A stretch of DNA of 64,000 nucleotides, taken from Pseudonocardiales bacterium (GTDB taxonomy: Bacteria > Actinomycetota > Actinomycetes > Mycobacteriales > Pseudonocardiaceae). The DNA is taken from NCBI GenBank assembly GCA_023252195.1, contig JAHEXI010000013.1, positions 24,064-88,063 on the forward strand, in the 5' to 3' direction. The translations under genes and the position numbers were made by a program. The notes beneath the pieces are model-generated. The model worked only from the letters and a program-made list of their open reading frames with translations, was not told the DNA's origin and did no database searches. Positions 31,741 through 42,157 of this stretch are shown here, in pieces (the first letter of the stretch is position 1; each line of letters starts with the position of its first letter).

Positions 31741-31977
31741 CAGCTTGGCCGCTGTAGCGGTCCTGGGCGAGCGTGAGGCGCACCTCTCGGGGTGCAGCGC
31801 CTTGCCGTGGTCGATGCCGCCGCGTGGTGGCTCTCGGAACCCAACGGTGGCGAGGAACTTGCCTACGCACTGCTTGCTGCGAGCTGTGTCGCGGAGATCA
31901 CCACCGAGCACGTTTACCTGGCCCTGATCACTCCATTCAACGAACCAGAGGATGAGGGTGAGGCTCCTTCTTTGTAG
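31741..31977 (+). pseudogene. Fragment of the repeated 188-residue family
   Basis: Matches the C-terminal 75 residues of the intact gene at 39291-39857 (LAAVAVLGEREAHL, then VDAAAWWLSEPNGGEE, EHVYLALIT). One base is missing near 31790, so the two parts lie in different frames. The first two thirds are absent. Confidence 0.7.
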
Positions 31978-32170: not shown

Positions 32171-32425
32171 TCAGTCGTCGTCAAATGGATCATCCACGAT
32201 CGTCGGTGCGCTGTACCAGTAGCATTCAGCCCACGGAATCCCGCATCGTGGGCATCGGTTCTGCTTTTCGTGGGCGATGCGAAGCGCTGCCCACTCCTCG
32301 TTGAGGCTGCGGCGTTCCTCGGCCTGTCGACGGAGTCGGGCCTGTAACGCCTGGATCGTCCAGGTCGTTCCCAGCAGCAGCCCGAGGCAGATCAGCACCA
32401 CCGCGGTCAGCGCTAGCGGCATCAC
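32171..32425 (-). CDS. Small membrane protein with C-terminal CxxC
   Basis: 84 residues: an N-terminal membrane helix (LTAVVLICLGLLLGTTWTIQ), a charged helix (RLRRQAEERRSLNEEWAALR), then CPRCGIPWAEC, which could bind zinc, and an acidic tail. This layout is familiar from small genes carried by actinobacterial integrative elements; no function is known. It is divergent from the GntR gene with a 280-base space between them. Confidence 0.6.
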   Translation of the reverse strand: MMPLALTAVVLICLGLLLGTTWTIQALQARLRRQAEERRSLNEEWAALRIAHEKQNRCPRCGIPWAECYWYSAPTIVDDPFDDD

Positions 32426-32560: not shown

Positions 32561-32708
32561 CCATCCGCTCTCGCGCCAACCGCCCGGTCCGCCCGTCACA
32601 AGCGGGCAACGACGGCTAAGCCCCATAGCTCCTGCGTTGCCGGTCGTATGACATTCAGCCGCGACGCAGAGGTAGACAGACGGGGACGCGAGACAGACAG
32701 GAGTGACG

Positions 32709-33524
32709 ATGAGCAGTACCCCGGACGGTGACGCAAGGGGCTCGCGGGTCCACGAGTGGGAGCTGAGGCTGGACGCACGGCGACCTCTACCGGAAGTGAT
32801 CGAGGACAAGCTGCGAGAGCTCATCGAGACCGGTGTGCTGCAACCCGGCGAGCGCCTTCCCAACGAGCCGGAGCTCGCCAGGAGGATGGGGGTGGCGCGC
32901 AGCTCAGTACGAACCGCATTGCAGCGCCTAGAGGTTCTCCGAGTGGTGGAGGTGCGACGGGGACGTGGCTGGTTCGTTCGACGAACACCGGTTGGCCATC
33001 CACCAGACGAGTTCGCAGACTGGATTTCTGAGCGGCGTTTCCGGATCAGTGAACGCCTCGAAGTCCGGATGGCGCTCGAGGGCATGGCCGCAAGTCTTGC
33101 TGCCGCGCGTGCAACCGAGGGGGAGATCGATGACATTGCAAAGCTCAGCAAAGATCATCTCACGGCTTCCCCCGACGTTGATGAGCTGATCAGGACTGAT
33201 GAGGCCTTTCACGACGCTATCTTCCGCGCCAGCCACAACGATTTGCTGGTCGAGACTTACCGGAGGCTGATTCCAAAGCTCACCGAGTGGCGCCGACGAG
33301 GTCTCGGGCGGGATGGGATGCCGGCACGTTCTGCTACCGAGCACGATAATGTCGTCCACTTTCTGAGACGAGGTGACCCCGCCGGCGCACGCGCCGCGAT
33401 CATGACTCACCTGCTCGGCCTCTACCACGACATTCATGCAGCCGAGGATCGGCAGGCCACAGAACAGCCTGCCCAGCTCGCTACATTCATGGGCATTGAG
33501 GACGAACCGGACTGGCAGCCCTGA
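32709..33524 (+). CDS. GntR-family regulator, FadR subfamily
   Basis: 271 residues. The N-terminal winged helix reads RLPNEPELARRMGVARSSVR, then LEVLRVVEVRRGRGWFVR. The C-terminal FCD domain has EVRMALEGMAASLAA and DEAFHDAIFRASHN with the Asp/His metal-site residues typical of FCD. It probably binds a small carboxylate. ATG 32709 has AGGAG 5 bases upstream. It heads the RiPP-like cassette: the next gene starts 34 bases downstream. A frameshifted copy of its first third follows the cassette at 36314. Confidence 0.88.
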   Translation: MSSTPDGDARGSRVHEWELRLDARRPLPEVIEDKLRELIETGVLQPGERLPNEPELARRMGVARSSVRTALQRLEVLRVVEVRRGRGWFVRRTPVGHPPDEFADWISERRFRISERLEVRMALEGMAASLAAARATEGEIDDIAKLSKDHLTASPDVDELIRTDEAFHDAIFRASHNDLLVETYRRLIPKLTEWRRRGLGRDGMPARSATEHDNVVHFLRRGDPAGARAAIMTHLLGLYHDIHAAEDRQATEQPAQLATFMGIEDEPDWQP

Positions 33525-33558
33525 CCCGGGGCCTGCGCCAGGTGGCACTCTCAGCGCT

Positions 33559-34653
33559 GTGACCTCAAGATGTTGTCACTGGCAACTCCACGGACGGGGA
33601 GTCTTCGCGGTGGGTGTGGCACTTTTGGCGTTTACGGCCGCGTTCCTTGGCGGTGTCCTCACGGCAGCACTCCTCGCAGTGGCCTATCGGACCATGTGGC
33701 GACGCCGCTTGACTGACGAGCTTCTCCAGCTGTCCGGACCGTCGATTGTGCAAGCGCTCGTACCGCAGCAGGTGATGACCACCCTGCTCTCAAAGATCTA
33801 CGGCAACGGCGAAGCCAACCACGATGTGGTTGCCGGCGTGCTAGGCGGTGAGGGCGTCGACTCACACGGCGCTGATCTGACCATCAGCACCCACACCACC
33901 GTGGACTACGAACTCCGGGCAGTTGATCATCAAATTTATGAGATTATCTCCACAGTTACGTACAGTTTCAAAGGAAATGTGCCCGACCACAGGTTTGTCA
34001 TTTTTGCGGCGTGCAACCCGTTACTCCGTGACTCAATTACACTTGCCTGCCGACTGCCGCTATTCGAATTCTGGTTCGTGCACGACCGGTTACTCTTCGA
34101 GCAGGCGGTGGACGCAATGCTCTCGTCGGTGAACATCGGTATCCGCTACACCGATCTCGACGGTTGCCATCATGATGTGCCACCCAGCAAGGTGCAGTTG
34201 ACTGAAGTGAGCTATCGCGACTGGCCTGAGTTCTTGACTTTCTTCCGCGGACCAGTGGGGACGATGCCCCGCCAGAACCCCGCACAATACATTGGCACTC
34301 TGCGAATCTTCGAGTGTGACCTCGACGAACTCGCCCACGTCGACCACGCTGTCAGCTCAGTGGAAAACCTGTCTCTGCGGTCGACGACACTGCAACGGCT
34401 GGACGACGGCTTCTGCTATTGGCAAGCCCCCTACCCATGCTACGTTGATCGCATCAGCTTCAACCCGACCGCGCTTATTATCGACGGTAGTTCCTGGCTT
34501 TTCAACATCGTGCCCTTTACTTTTCGATCTGGCATCGCGACGGTCGCATGGACCCCGGCAGAGCAGCTAAAAGATCTAGCTGTACGCTCCTGGCTGCTCC
34601 CTGGCCACGGCGTTGCCCTCCTGTGGAAGCGATCGAATGACCACACCAGCTAG
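33559..34653 (+). CDS. Membrane-anchored protein of unknown family in the RiPP-like cassette
   Basis: 364 residues from a GTG at 33559. One N-terminal membrane segment (FAVGVALLAFTAAFLGGVLT) followed by MWRRRL places the remaining roughly 320 residues most likely in the cytoplasm. That part is mixed alpha/beta with many aromatic residues (HRFVIFAACNPLLRDSITLA, FEFWFVHDRLLFEQAVD, FCYWQAPYPCYVDRISFN). I recognise no domain and see no catalytic signature. GC content is lower than in the core genes. Its end overlaps the HEXXH gene by 17 bases, so the two are coupled and probably work together, perhaps presenting the peptide or the enzyme at the membrane. Confidence 0.7.
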   Translation: MTSRCCHWQLHGRGVFAVGVALLAFTAAFLGGVLTAALLAVAYRTMWRRRLTDELLQLSGPSIVQALVPQQVMTTLLSKIYGNGEANHDVVAGVLGGEGVDSHGADLTISTHTTVDYELRAVDHQIYEIISTVTYSFKGNVPDHRFVIFAACNPLLRDSITLACRLPLFEFWFVHDRLLFEQAVDAMLSSVNIGIRYTDLDGCHHDVPPSKVQLTEVSYRDWPEFLTFFRGPVGTMPRQNPAQYIGTLRIFECDLDELAHVDHAVSSVENLSLRSTTLQRLDDGFCYWQAPYPCYVDRISFNPTALIIDGSSWLFNIVPFTFRSGIATVAWTPAEQLKDLAVRSWLLPGHGVALLWKRSNDHTS

Positions 34654-35962
34654 ACCCGTGCGATCTGACATCCCCGCACTGCACGCATACATCGCGTCCT
34701 CGGGCGCGTTGCAACGAGAACGTCGAGCTCTCTATCAGTTCGCTACCGAGCTGCTGCCGGGCGGCTGTCCACAGCAGATGCTGGATCCCGATGTCATCGA
34801 CAGTCCGCTGGCCCGTAACCACATTGGCGCCGTGCTGGCCGGCCGCGCGAGCCTGACGTACTCAGCGCTTGTTGGCACCAGTGCCGTGGCAGATGCTGCT
34901 AGCCGCGTACAAAACCTCTGGGTGGCGTCGCGACCGGAGGCCAACACCCTGCTAGCGGCGGCGTTGGACACCGTTGGATCAGAGCTATCTCGTCAGGAGG
35001 CGGGGTTCGAGTCCCCTCGGCTCCTTACCGAAACAGATGGCGAGCGCTTTATCTCAGCGCTACGTGTGCTGAGTGATGGAGTTGCTCTGGCTCGGTCGGT
35101 GAACCCCGAACTGATTGATGACCTACTTGTCCATATCACACTAGTCGGGGTCCTCGATCCGCAGTGCGCCGGACGACTGGCGTCTGCGTCTCTTCGCACC
35201 TTTCCCGGATTAGTTCTGCTGAAAAGTTCGCAATCGAGCATCGAGGTCGCCGAGGCACTAGTGCACGAAGGCGCTCATCAGAAGCTCTTTGACCTGGCCA
35301 TCACTCATGACCTACTGAATGCTGACTCACACCAGTGCCCACCGTTTCACCCACCATGGGGACCGGAGGAAAGTCTCTGGCCGCTGGAGCAGACCCTCGC
35401 CGCGTGCCACGCATACGCTTGCATGGCTCGATTCGCTCTCGACGCGGGTGTCATGGCCGGAATCCGCGTGGTTGGGCACAATTCGTTGCTTCCCGTAGCC
35501 AGTGAGCGGAGCGAGATCCTTGGTCAATGGCTGCTGGACAAGGGTGATCACCTCGGTGATGATGCGCATATACTGTTGAACGGCCTCCTTGGTCGATGGC
35601 CGCGCACCTCCCGTATCACGGAAGTCTTGCCTAGGCAGGTGACTGCGGACTACGTCATCGACAGGCAGCTAGAGTTCCGCCGTTGTGGTTCTTCGAACCG
35701 GGTTCTTGTGGGGTGTCCGTCGCAACCTCCGCGGCTGTGCTGGGTCAGTGATGAGGCGGCGACGGTAATCGAGCTTCTCGCGCAGAGCTCCCTCGATGAG
35801 GTCACCAAGATCTTCGCCCAACAGTGGCGAGTGAATCAATCTGACGCCGCTGGCCGGCTGAGTGCGGTGCTCTCGGACCTCTGCGTAGCTGGGCTGCTAA
35901 GTAGCAGGGCTACTAGAAGTAGGGACTCAGTGGGTGGTGGCCGTAACACAGGGTGTTGCTAG
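34637..35962 (+). CDS. HEXXH-type peptide-modifying protein with PqqD-like C-terminus
   Basis: 441 residues. The central motif is HEGAH at residues 210-214 in VAEALVHEGAHQKLFDLA, followed by PPWGPEESLWPLEQTL and CHAYACMARF. This order (HExxH, aromatic-Pro-Trp, then an aromatic helix) is that of the HEXXH putative peptide-modification family associated with RiPP clusters, members of which have been described as 2-oxoglutarate-dependent peptide beta-hydroxylases. Residues about 355-425 (PPRLCWVSDEAATVIELLAQ, then AAGRLSAVLSDLCVAGLL) look like a PqqD-type winged helix, the usual RiPP recognition element that binds a leader peptide. ATG 34637 has GGAAG 6 bases upstream. Family assignment is by motif only. 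Confidence 0.75.
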   Translation: MTTPARPVRSDIPALHAYIASSGALQRERRALYQFATELLPGGCPQQMLDPDVIDSPLARNHIGAVLAGRASLTYSALVGTSAVADAASRVQNLWVASRPEANTLLAAALDTVGSELSRQEAGFESPRLLTETDGERFISALRVLSDGVALARSVNPELIDDLLVHITLVGVLDPQCAGRLASASLRTFPGLVLLKSSQSSIEVAEALVHEGAHQKLFDLAITHDLLNADSHQCPPFHPPWGPEESLWPLEQTLAACHAYACMARFALDAGVMAGIRVVGHNSLLPVASERSEILGQWLLDKGDHLGDDAHILLNGLLGRWPRTSRITEVLPRQVTADYVIDRQLEFRRCGSSNRVLVGCPSQPPRLCWVSDEAATVIELLAQSSLDEVTKIFAQQWRVNQSDAAGRLSAVLSDLCVAGLLSSRATRSRDSVGGGRNTGCC

Positions 35963-35985
35963 CATGATCCTTACAGCGCTAGGAT
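35956..35985 (+). promoter_or_regulatory. Promoter-like sequence before the small peptide gene
   Basis: TTGCTA (35956-35961) and TAGGAT (35980-35985) with an 18-base spacer resemble -35 and -10 boxes of the main sigma factor. Transcripts would start about 60 bases before the ATG at 36054. Confidence 0.4.
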
Positions 35986-36007
35986 GATCTTCACCATGAG
36001 TGAGGTG

Positions 36008-36037
36008 TGACCGTCAACAGTAGATCTGACCGTCAAC
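36008..36037. promoter_or_regulatory. Direct repeat in the leader of the peptide gene
   Basis: TGACCGTCAAC occurs at 36008-36018 and 36027-36037. The 19-base period downstream of the promoter-like boxes suggests an operator or an RNA element. Confidence 0.35.
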
Positions 36038-36053
36038 GAGGGGACAGGTTCTG

Positions 36054-36227
36054 ATGATCAAGGAAAGCATTGCCAAGGACAACGCACCATCGAAGCACGC
36101 CGTGCCTGTTGCCTGGTTCCAGGGTGATCCTGGGGGCACTATCTTCATCGTTCCACCGGGGGGTACAGCAGCTTCCAAGCCAATCATCGAGGAGGGCGGT
36201 GATGGCATCACCAGCCCTCATAACTGA
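36054..36227 (+). CDS. Candidate RiPP precursor peptide (57 residues)
   Basis: An ORF of 57 codons plus stop, 91 bases after the HEXXH gene on the same strand, with a GAGGGGA sequence about 8 bases before the ATG. The N-terminal part (MIKESIAKDNAPSKHAVP) is charged and leader-like. The C-terminal part is rich in Gly and Pro with a hydrophobic centre (GDPGGTIFIVPPGG) and ends ITSPHN. It contains no cysteine and no membrane helix. Position, size, own promoter-like boxes and the PqqD-like domain next door make it the natural substrate candidate, but no known precursor family is recognised. Confidence 0.5.
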   Translation: MIKESIAKDNAPSKHAVPVAWFQGDPGGTIFIVPPGGTAASKPIIEEGGDGITSPHN

Positions 36228-36313: not shown

Positions 36314-36625
36314 TGGGAGTTGAAGCTGGACGCACGGCGACCTCTACCGGAAGTGATCGAGGACAAGCTGCGAGAGCTTTATCGAGACCGGTGTGCTGCA
36401 ACCCGGCGAGCGCCTTGCCAACGAGCCGGAGCTCGCCAGGAGGATCGGGGTGGCGCGCAGCTCAGTGCGAACCGCATTACAGCGCCTAGAGGTCCTCTGA
36501 GTGGTGGAGGTGCGACGGGGACGTGGCTGGTTCGTTCCTCGAAAACCGGTCGGTCATCCACCAGACGAGTTCGCGACTGGATTTCTGAGCAGCGTTTCCA
36601 GATCAGTGAACGGCACGAGAGCCCC
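36314..36625 (+). pseudogene. Frameshifted partial copy of the GntR gene
   Basis: Nearly identical to 32757-33062 (codons for WEL-LDARRPLPEVIEDKLRE and on). One extra base near 36378 shifts the frame, and an in-frame TGA ends a second frame at about 36500. Similarity fades after GGATTTCTGAGCAGCGTTTC. It is a duplicated, dead 5' part of the regulator, placed just after the cassette. Confidence 0.8.
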
Positions 36626-37564: not shown

Positions 37565-38787
37565 ATGAGTACGCCGAGAGTCAGAGCCAACGGCGAGGGT
37601 TCGCTGTTCGCCTACCGCAACGGATACGCGGCCTACGTGTGGGTCACGACGCCGGGTGGCGGCCGCGAGCGCAAATGGATCTACGGGCAGGACCGGGACG
37701 AGCTGCATAGTCGGTGGATCGACCTGCAGAAACAGGCAAAAAGCGGCCCGTAGCTACAAAGGTGCCCAAGGTCGCCGAGTACCTCACCTACTGGTTGCAG
37801 GAGATCGTGGCGCCCAACCTCGCTCCACTCACGTACGCGACATACGAAACCCTGACCCGGCTGTACATCGTGCCGGGCCTGGGCGCCAAGCGCCTCGACA
37901 AGCTCACCTTGCGAGACGTACAGACATGGCTGAACAAAGTCCGGCAAAGCTGCCAGTGCTGCGCCCAGGGCAAGGACGCTCGCCGGCCGGCAAAGGCCCG
38001 TCGATGTTGCGCGGTCGGCAAGTGCTGCGGCGCTGCGCCGTCACCGCGCACGGTCAGCGATCTTCGGACCGTGCTCCGGTCCGCGCTGTCCTCGGCCGCT
38101 CGGGAGGAGCTGATAACCAAAAATGTGGTGACCATGACCCAACTGCCGGCACGGCGCCGACGCAAGAGAAAGCCGTGGTCAAGTGACGAGGCGCGGACCT
38201 TCCTTGAATCAGTACGCCTCGACGACAACGCGCTCTACGCCGCCTACGTGCTGATACTTGTCCTCGGCCTGCGTAAGGGTGAGGTCCTCGGGCTCACCTG
38301 GCTCGATGTGGATCTGGATGCAGCCGAGCTGACCGTTGGTTGGCAACTGCAACGGGTCCGTGGCGAACTGCTGCACCGAGAAACCAAGACGGCGGCCTCG
38401 GATGCGACGCTGCCGTTGCCGCCAATCTGCGTGGCAGCGCTCAGGCAACGGCGAACGGCCCAGGACCGGACTCGCGAGGTCGCCGGCGAGGCGTGGACCC
38501 GATCGGACCTGGTGTTCACCACCCGGTACGGCGACCCCATCGAGCCCCGCAACTTCAACCGCTACTTCGCGGCTCGATGCGCGGCGGCAGGGGTCCGGCA
38601 GATCACTGTCCACGATGCCCGGCGCACCTGCGCCACCCTCCTCGTCGACCTGGACGTACACCCGCGAGTAGTGATGCAGATCCTGAGGCACGCACAGTTC
38701 GACGTGACGATGGAGGTGTACGCGTCGGCGTCCTCCGCGGCGACCCGGGAGGCGCTCAAGCGGCTGGGGGCGAGCCTCGATGGCTGA
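37565..38787 (+). pseudogene. Tyrosine integrase with a frameshift in an A5 tract
   Basis: Codons 1-63 (frame 2) encode the N-terminal arm-binding domain (NGEGSLFAYRNGYAAYVWV). Just after KQAK the frame must shift by -1 at AAAAA (37737-37741) to continue VATKVPKVAEYLTYWLQEIV and the rest. The core-binding domain has a Cys-rich insert (CQCCAQGKDARRPAKARRCC), common in actinobacterial tRNA integrases. Catalytic residues are Arg in GLRKGEVLGL, HDARR, the His of LRHAQ and Tyr in MEVYASA. Downstream lie arm-type repeats and a tRNA-Pro att core. A real mutation, a sequencing error or programmed slippage are all possible. Confidence 0.8.
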
Positions 38788-39290: not shown

Positions 39291-39857
39291 ATGCCAGACC
39301 CTAGGCAATTCGATCCGGACCGGCTCCGGGTGGTGCTCGATCACGGTGAGGCTGTGGAGCTAGACGGCGGCACGCTCATCCTGGAGGGCCAGGAGTCCCC
39401 GAGCGTGGTGCTCCGGCTGGCGCCCTGGCGCGTGCGGTCAGTCGCCCGGGTACTGCACGAGTGGTCGTCAGTGTCACGGATCCTCCACCACCCGACTCGA
39501 CCGCACCTGAATGAGCTGGATCTGTCGCGGACGCTGGAGTTGGCCGCTGCGGTGCTCGGCGCCAGCGACGAGCCAAACGCGCGGTCTCTCCGCGGATCGC
39601 GCGTCATTCCCAATCGGCAACGCTTGGCCGCGGTGGCAGTCCTGGGCGAGCGTGAGGCGCACCTCACGGCGGTGCAGCGCCTGGCTCTGGTCGATGCCGC
39701 TGCGTGGTGGCTCTCGGAACCCAACGGCGGCGAGGAATTTGCCTATGCACTGCTTGCTGCGAGCTGCGCGACGGAGGTCACCACGGAACACGTGTACCTC
39801 ACCCTGATCACCTCATCCCACGAACCAAATGATGACGGCGAGGCTGCGTCCCCGTAG
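39291..39857 (+). CDS. 188-residue family protein, intact copy
   Basis: 188 residues from ATG 39291 with a purine-rich GAGAGGGTGGAG upstream. Probably all-helical after a short beta N-terminus (LDGGTLILEGQESPSVVLRL). The most conserved stretch between copies is LAAVAVLGEREAHLTAVQ and VDAAAWWLSEPNGGEEFAYA. No motif ties it to a known function. Two damaged copies lie at 31741 and 41580, and all sit near mobile-element junctions, so the family travels with these elements. Confidence 0.65.
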   Translation: MPDPRQFDPDRLRVVLDHGEAVELDGGTLILEGQESPSVVLRLAPWRVRSVARVLHEWSSVSRILHHPTRPHLNELDLSRTLELAAAVLGASDEPNARSLRGSRVIPNRQRLAAVAVLGEREAHLTAVQRLALVDAAAWWLSEPNGGEEFAYALLAASCATEVTTEHVYLTLITSSHEPNDDGEAASP

Positions 39858-41579: not shown

Positions 41580-42157
41580 GTGCCAGACCCTACGCAGTCC
41601 GGCCTGGACCCGATCCGGGTGGCTTTGGATCACGGTGAGGTGGTGGAGCTAGACGCTAGACGGCAGCACGCTTGTCTAATTAGATGGCGAGGAATCCCTG
41701 TGCGTGGTGCTCCGGCTGGCGCCCTGGCGTGCGTAATCGGCGGCTCGGGTACTGCGGGAGTGGTCGTCAGTGTCGCGGATATTTCACCACTCGACCCGGC
41801 CACATCTAGATGAGCTAGATCTGTCGCGGACGCTGGAGTTGGCCGTTGCGGTGCTCGGTGGCGGCGATGAGCCGATCTCGCGCTCCCCGCGCGGCTCGCG
41901 CGTCATTCCTCATCGGCAACGCTTGGCCGCCGTGGCCGTTCTTGGTGAGCGTGAGGCGCACCTGTCCGCGGTGCAGCGCCTCGCCCTGGTCGACTCTGCG
42001 GCGTGGTGGCTCTCGGAACCCAATGGTGGTGAGGAATTTGCCTACGCACTGCGTGCAGCTAACTGCGGCGCGGAGATCAGCACGGAACACGTTTAACCTC
42101 GCCCTGATCACTCCGTCCGAGGAACCGGAGGAGGAGGGCGAGGTTCGTTCCTCATGA
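41580..42157 (+). pseudogene. 188-residue family, frameshifted copy
   Basis: A GTG at 41580 opens PDPTQSGLDPIRVALDHGEV like the intact gene. Frameshifts near 41660 and 41760 break it, and from 41770 the frame reads RIFHHSTRPHLDELDLSRTL through VDSAAWWLSEPNGGEEFAYA. A premature TAA ends that frame at 42096. Confidence 0.75.

Follow-up and report, generated by a model that had tools for sequence, protein, structure and literature searches.

A four-gene cassette of Pseudonocardiaceae, likely a membrane-tethered system for intracellular peptide hydroxylation, and the recurrence of its peptide motif in phage proteins

Enzymes that modify ribosomally synthesized and post-translationally modified peptides (RiPPs) have been studied mostly as makers of exported natural products. 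The locus described here raises the question of what such an enzyme does in a compact cassette together with a GntR-family regulator, a membrane protein of no known family and a short peptide. The cassette lies in a stretch of 64,000 nucleotides (the window) from a Pseudonocardiales bacterium (GCA_023252195.1, contig JAHEXI010000013.1, positions 24,064 to 88,063) of the Pseudonocardiaceae, which are soil bacteria. We think that it is probably an intracellular, membrane-tethered peptide-hydroxylation system, the motif of which has been copied by phages.

The cassette and its enzyme

An earlier note on this DNA, made from the sequence alone, had described four open reading frames (ORFs) on the same strand, with a 34-base gap, a 17-base overlap and a 57-codon ORF 91 bases further on, and this placement was confirmed. 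The features of the cassette are as follows.

32703..33524, + strand: GntR-family regulator with an FCD domain, 273 residues (PF07729, E = 4.1e-25; PF00392, E = 4e-19); the earlier note had its start at 32709
33559..34653, + strand: membrane protein of no known family, with an N-terminal membrane helix and then a predicted beta-sandwich domain; start uncertain
34637..35962, + strand: HExxH-type peptide hydroxylase with a PqqD-like C-terminus, 441 residues
35264..35278, + strand: HEGAH motif of the enzyme, residues 210-214, with H210, E211, A213 and H214 invariant among 30 homologues
35645..35908, + strand: domain of the enzyme resembling PqqD and other RiPP recognition elements (RREs), about residues 337-424
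36054..36227, + strand: 57-residue peptide, likely the substrate, matched by peptide profile A3 downstream of the enzyme in 57/57 loci
36108..36158, + strand: conserved motif of the peptide, residues 19-35, VAWFQGDPGGTIFIVPP

The class of the enzyme is given by the profile TIGR04267 (alpha-ketoglutarate-dependent, or aKG, HExxH-type peptide beta-hydroxylase), which it matches with 67.3 bits at a cut-off of 40, and the three defining positions of the HExxH motif, H210, E211 and H214, do not vary in the 30 sequences of the subfamily. The predicted fold of the catalytic domain matches the HExxH domain of ChlB, and the C-terminus is predicted to adopt a three-strand winged-helix PqqD/RRE fold. The Pfam gathering score for PqqD is not reached by the window protein (13.3 bits versus 23.4), and a precomputed PF05402 label is present on three relatives (P0044, P0057 and P0061). 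Both the profile and the predicted fold, the latter obtained by the structure prediction that the earlier note had proposed as a check, thus bear out its suggestion of an HExxH enzyme with a fused PqqD-like C-terminal domain, albeit below the Pfam cut-off for PqqD. By analogy with the family, the enzyme would carry out a hydroxylation inside the motif that depends on iron, oxygen and alpha-ketoglutarate. Two papers describe small encoded peptides as the substrates of aKG-HExxH hydroxylases (PMC12636437, PMC13060819), and the latter names His, Asp, Phe, Gln and Pro as acceptor residues in other family members, so that the near-invariant Phe and Pro of the motif are plausible hydroxylation sites.

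The peptide and its motif

The 57-codon ORF, which the earlier note had included in the cassette, is a real peptide gene. Over 390 Pseudonocardiaceae genomes, profile A3 found a match downstream of the enzyme, on the same strand and within 2.5 kb, in 57/57 loci, at a median distance of 143 bp (range 12 to 1853). A3 had itself been built with rows from no more than 28 of these loci, which leaves 29 or more as independent cases. A short precursor-type peptide adjoining a modifying enzyme, which serves as a criterion for a RiPP cluster, is accordingly found at every one of the 57 loci. The window peptide itself has two database relatives, 95 and 91% identical, and the same core is present downstream of the enzyme in other genera. 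The peptides share the motif Vx[WF]FxxxP..GG.Tx[FY]; in the A3 alignment of 30 peptides V19 is invariant, and F22, P26, G27 and T29 occur in 90% or more. Judged from codon substitutions, the peptides are under purifying selection, with a ratio of nonsynonymous to synonymous substitution (dN/dS) of 0.05 to 0.61 in 28/28 pairs of close peptides; in shifted frames, the corresponding pN/pS was 1.03 to 5.10 in six pairs. In genus g7 (Lentzea type) a cassette can hold up to three peptides, and 16 genomes of this genus have an additional motif peptide on the far side of the membrane gene (e.g. L070, L078).

The membrane protein and the distribution of the cassette

The membrane protein was modelled by AlphaFold2 with a mean predicted local distance difference test (pLDDT) of 76.8, and no Pfam or NCBIfam family above cut-off was found for it or for the 57-residue peptide, nor did PADLOC models give a convincing match to either. 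Basic residues follow its membrane helix, which suggests that its body is cytoplasmic. With profiles A1 (enzyme) and A2 (membrane protein), it was found at most 5 kb from the enzyme in 57/57 full-length loci in 56 genomes. For this count the 63 best enzyme rows were considered and the first 57 (E up to 3.1e-64) were taken as full length, which excluded two pieces in G005, partial or weak matches in G004, G284, G398 and G168, and all weaker rows; the membrane protein rows were all used except the last, a fragment in G408, and all A3 rows were used. The membrane gene stands on the same strand as the enzyme in 14 loci and on the opposite strand in 43, and as both gene orders occur, the linkage is not that of one frozen operon. 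A separate scan of named genomes (metagenome-assembled Pseudonocardiales genomes, Amycolatopsis, Lentzea and Pseudonocardia) found the membrane protein in 19/19 loci. The view of the earlier note that a membrane protein of no known family adjoins the enzyme genes therefore stands, and the co-occurrence search it had proposed found these homologues beside HExxH genes. The locus gives a first context for an unnamed membrane protein family. Of the eight places where the membrane protein has no enzyme match nearby, five are in g52 genomes and one is at a contig end in G009; the other two are in G408 and, as an additional copy, in G230.

The cassette is present in 58 of the 390 genomes, that is, the 56 with full-length loci plus G005 and G009, where it is split over contigs. 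The enzyme occurs in 24/24 genomes of g7 and in 18/19 of g26 (Amycolatopsis type). In a phylum sample of 346 genomes, the enzyme profile at E 1e-15 matched only the genome of the window, and in an order sample of 298 genomes the motif (E 1e-5) was found in seven, all of them g1, g7 or g26. The genome of the window carries a second cassette (C48:253864-255090, in region L069, C48:244000-262000), with an enzyme 65% identical to the first. Its membrane gene retains an N-terminal piece only, which corresponds to residues 34-103 of the window protein. Of its two peptide copies, one is whole and the other is partial and lacks the motif, apparently through a frameshift. To judge from these sequences this second cassette is apparently decaying; the window copy is the intact one of the two.

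Motif copies in phage proteins

Within the family, 87 A3 matches had E below 1e-6. Of these, 83 have an enzyme match no more than 8 kb away, one (G009) is at a contig break, and the remaining three stand in runs of phage genes, with E-values of 2.9e-10, 1.6e-9 and 2.1e-9. All three prophages reside in cassette-bearing genomes, and two further viral proteins with the motif were found in IMG/VR.

L074:6776-7249 (in G235): 157-residue protein flanked by major head, head protease, portal, terminase, tail and integrase genes
L075:7023-8009 (in G283): 328 residues, about 5.5 kb from a terminase gene
L076:6294-6803 (in G233): 169 residues, about 4.6 kb from a terminase gene; an identical sequence is in IMG/VR (L081)
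L083:2966-3250 (IMG/VR contig): 94 residues, two full motif copies and a partial third, near amidase and ThyX genes
L084:11460-11945 (IMG/VR contig): 161 residues, motif at the beginning of the protein, beside a DnaB-like helicase gene

The motif begins no later than residue 60 in all five viral proteins, and a comparison of the bodies of these five proteins gave no common family. Relatives of the L075 body in Gordonia and Streptomyces phages match it from residue 81 onwards and lack the motif (among the matches listed, 20 of 72). When the prophage motifs were compared with 24 host motif segments, the own host was best for L076 (88 versus 85) and for L074 (91 versus 90), and the motif DNA of host and prophage was identical at 51/63, 47/66 and 37/63 positions in the three pairs. 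A PADLOC scan of ten proteins gave no convincing known anti-phage system; the best E-values were 0.018-0.026, and neither the enzyme nor the peptide had a match. The L083 contig also encodes a TROVE-domain protein.

Proposed mechanism and alternatives

The conserved gene set with its shared motif, together with the five viral copies, suggests that the peptide is likely the substrate of the enzyme and is likely exploited by phages. In the mechanism that we favour, the short peptide would be captured by the PqqD-like domain, where that domain is complete, and would then be beta-hydroxylated by the HExxH domain at a residue within the motif. The modified peptide would probably be held or read at the inner membrane face by the partner protein, and the GntR regulator would control the cassette and adjust supply. 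The phage proteins would act as decoys or hijackers that compete for motif recognition or use it. The partnership of the genes, the conservation of the peptide, the enzyme class given by the profile and the motif copies in phages are observed, and the folds are predicted; hydroxylation, binding and any effect on phages are what we infer from these comparisons. As the motif is nearly constant across genera and the enzyme near-universal in two of them, the peptide would be an internal signal or adaptor rather than a diversifying secreted antibiotic. A bolder version, which we put forward tentatively and consider possible rather than probable, is that a small cytoplasmic peptide receives a hydroxylation mark in a reaction dependent on oxygen and alpha-ketoglutarate, that a membrane-anchored protein reads this mark, and that Pseudonocardiaceae use the whole as a core internal signalling or guard system, which phages counter or hijack by copying the marked motif, once as a tandem decoy.

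Several observations weigh against the hydroxylation system as we propose it. The PqqD-like part is short by about 15-17 residues in Amycolatopsis sequences and reduced to its strands in 4/6 Pseudonocardia sequences, and the peptides of both genera retain the motif despite this. The cassette is patchy in g4 (Pseudonocardia type), where seven genomes have a full-length match, and this limits genus-core status to two genera. The family scans for exporters and proteases covered the six window proteins only. In 5/5 g52 loci, the GntR gene and the membrane protein gene are adjacent without the enzyme. The relatives PflC and PosC hydroxylate and then cleave their peptides (PMC12636437). Against the proposed phage mimicry in particular, the motif of L075 is closest to other peptides of the same genus and not to that of its own host, among the 24 host segments, and a convincing motif match was found neither in 50,697 annotated phages (best E 2 in one search, no match in another) nor in plasmids. 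Of the overall reading in the earlier note, that of a self-contained peptide-modifying system, the fusion of enzyme and PqqD-like domain, the adjacent peptide and the membrane partner are supported, and its simple form is weakened by the reduced PqqD-like parts and by the g52 loci without enzyme.

These g52 loci speak for another explanation, in which the peptide acts on the membrane protein as a ligand or inhibitor and the two form the functional pair, with the enzyme as an optional tailoring step. In 4/5 of them (L071, L077, L085 and L087) the immediate neighbour of the membrane gene is an ORF that contains at least three PGGG repeats, for instance L071:6888-7196 with six GGGARMIP units; no second such ORF was found there, and L086 has none. 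The g52 loci hint, at the level of sequence, that membrane protein and peptide may be the older pair, although the repeats are of low complexity and lack the full motif. The extra motif peptides beyond the membrane gene in 16 g7 genomes fit this explanation as well. In all other genera, however, the enzyme is never missing beside a motif peptide save at contig breaks, and we regard the explanation as unlikely.

It is about equally unlikely that the motif in the phage proteins was captured from hosts, or arose by coincidence, and has no functional tie to the cassette. That there are just five viral cases, with nothing convincing in annotated phages or plasmids, and that L075 does not resemble its own host most closely among the peptides compared, would suit such an origin. 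Against it stand the low E-values of the three prophage matches and their confinement to genomes of the cassette-bearing minority, the five distinct protein contexts with the motif always near the N-terminus and once in tandem, and a stricter motif expression that matched nowhere in 7.2 Mb of shuffled sequence (the same expression misses L074 and L076).

The main chemical rival to hydroxylation as the end point is cleavage, in which the enzyme would cut the peptide at the motif, either oxidatively through the backbone or by proteolysis, and the product would be the piece set free. The reason to consider it is that PflC and PosC cut peptides as well, and that PflC shows proteolysis without a leader (PMC12636437). 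The predicted catalytic domain is also similar to zincin proteases, at lower Z. We nevertheless consider this improbable, as the name of TIGR04267 refers to hydroxylation, the 30 aligned peptides lack the ARMD cleavage motif of the PflC/PosC system, and residues on both sides of the Pro in the motif show conservation, in keeping with recognition of the segment as a whole.

Just as improbable is an ordinary secreted RiPP, an antibiotic or pheromone with its protease and exporter encoded elsewhere in the genome, since the core is nearly invariant between genera, where typical antibiotic precursors are more variable, the partnership with membrane protein and GntR regulator is fixed, and the phage copies would be hard to account for; the several peptides per cassette in g7 would agree with it, as would the absence of an own protease from many RiPP clusters (PMC12636437).

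Relation to known systems

The cassette has known parts, namely an HExxH peptide hydroxylase, an RRE fold and a RiPP-like precursor. With the aKG-HExxH peptide hydroxylases (TIGR04267 / IPR026337: the ChlB HExxH domain, PflC/PosC, PesO, BpmH) it shares the profile, the HExxH motif and the predicted fold. It differs from them in that no radical S-adenosylmethionine (SAM), MNIO or nitroreductase partner was recognised among the six window proteins scanned, and in the fused PqqD-like domain, the new membrane partner and the recurrence of the motif in phage proteins. Compared with the PqqD/RRE domains of TbiB1, TfuB1 and PqqD, the domain here falls under the Pfam PqqD cut-off, is fused to a hydroxylase and is eroded in two genera. 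An HExxH protein and a small peptide are also found in fxs-type clusters, which by definition include a radical SAM maturase; the peptide end is different here, and the Pfam and NCBIfam scans of the six window proteins returned no radical SAM gene. Phage decoys that copy host recognition motifs are a general idea, and here too a host motif is copied by phage proteins, in one of them in tandem. In contrast to such decoys, the motif belongs to a peptide-modification cassette that has no convincing PADLOC match, and an effect on infection would be our inference. In the titles and abstract beginnings of the open-licence papers listed by our searches we found no description of the membrane-family partnership, the near-fixed motif, the two-genus presence or the phage copies. 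If the motif is hydroxylated and read in the cell, the cassette would be a case of peptide modification that serves regulation or protection, with the phage proteins as its natural probes; the four cassette parts are small enough for co-expression.

Neighbouring features

Around the cassette, the following features were found.

32171..32425, - strand: ORF for an 84-residue small membrane protein, divergent from the GntR gene, a possible further component
36314-36618: partial GntR copy just after the peptide, 93% identical to 32757-33061 over 306 columns
37714-38787: tyrosine integrase gene (Pfam) downstream of the cassette
31743-31977, 39622-39857 and 41921-42156: three copies of one segment, flanking the cassette on both sides, 68-92% identical to the first

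Divergently oriented ORFs for small membrane proteins accompany the GntR gene in 16/19 loci where GntR was called, and in 4/5 of the g52 loci. In several genera these divergent proteins have 50-73 residues and a WR motif (GWRTVL, FWRIAI, YWRLVA; L070:9472-9624, L020:9685-9843, L071:9463-9660, L028:7517-7738). They are a possible further component of the system. The partial GntR copy is what is left of either another cassette or a rearrangement, and with a tyrosine integrase gene downstream the cassette may have moved with an element. At two of its sites, the flanking repeated segment is part of an ORF that ends in the stretch VDxAAWWLSEPNGGEEFAYAL.

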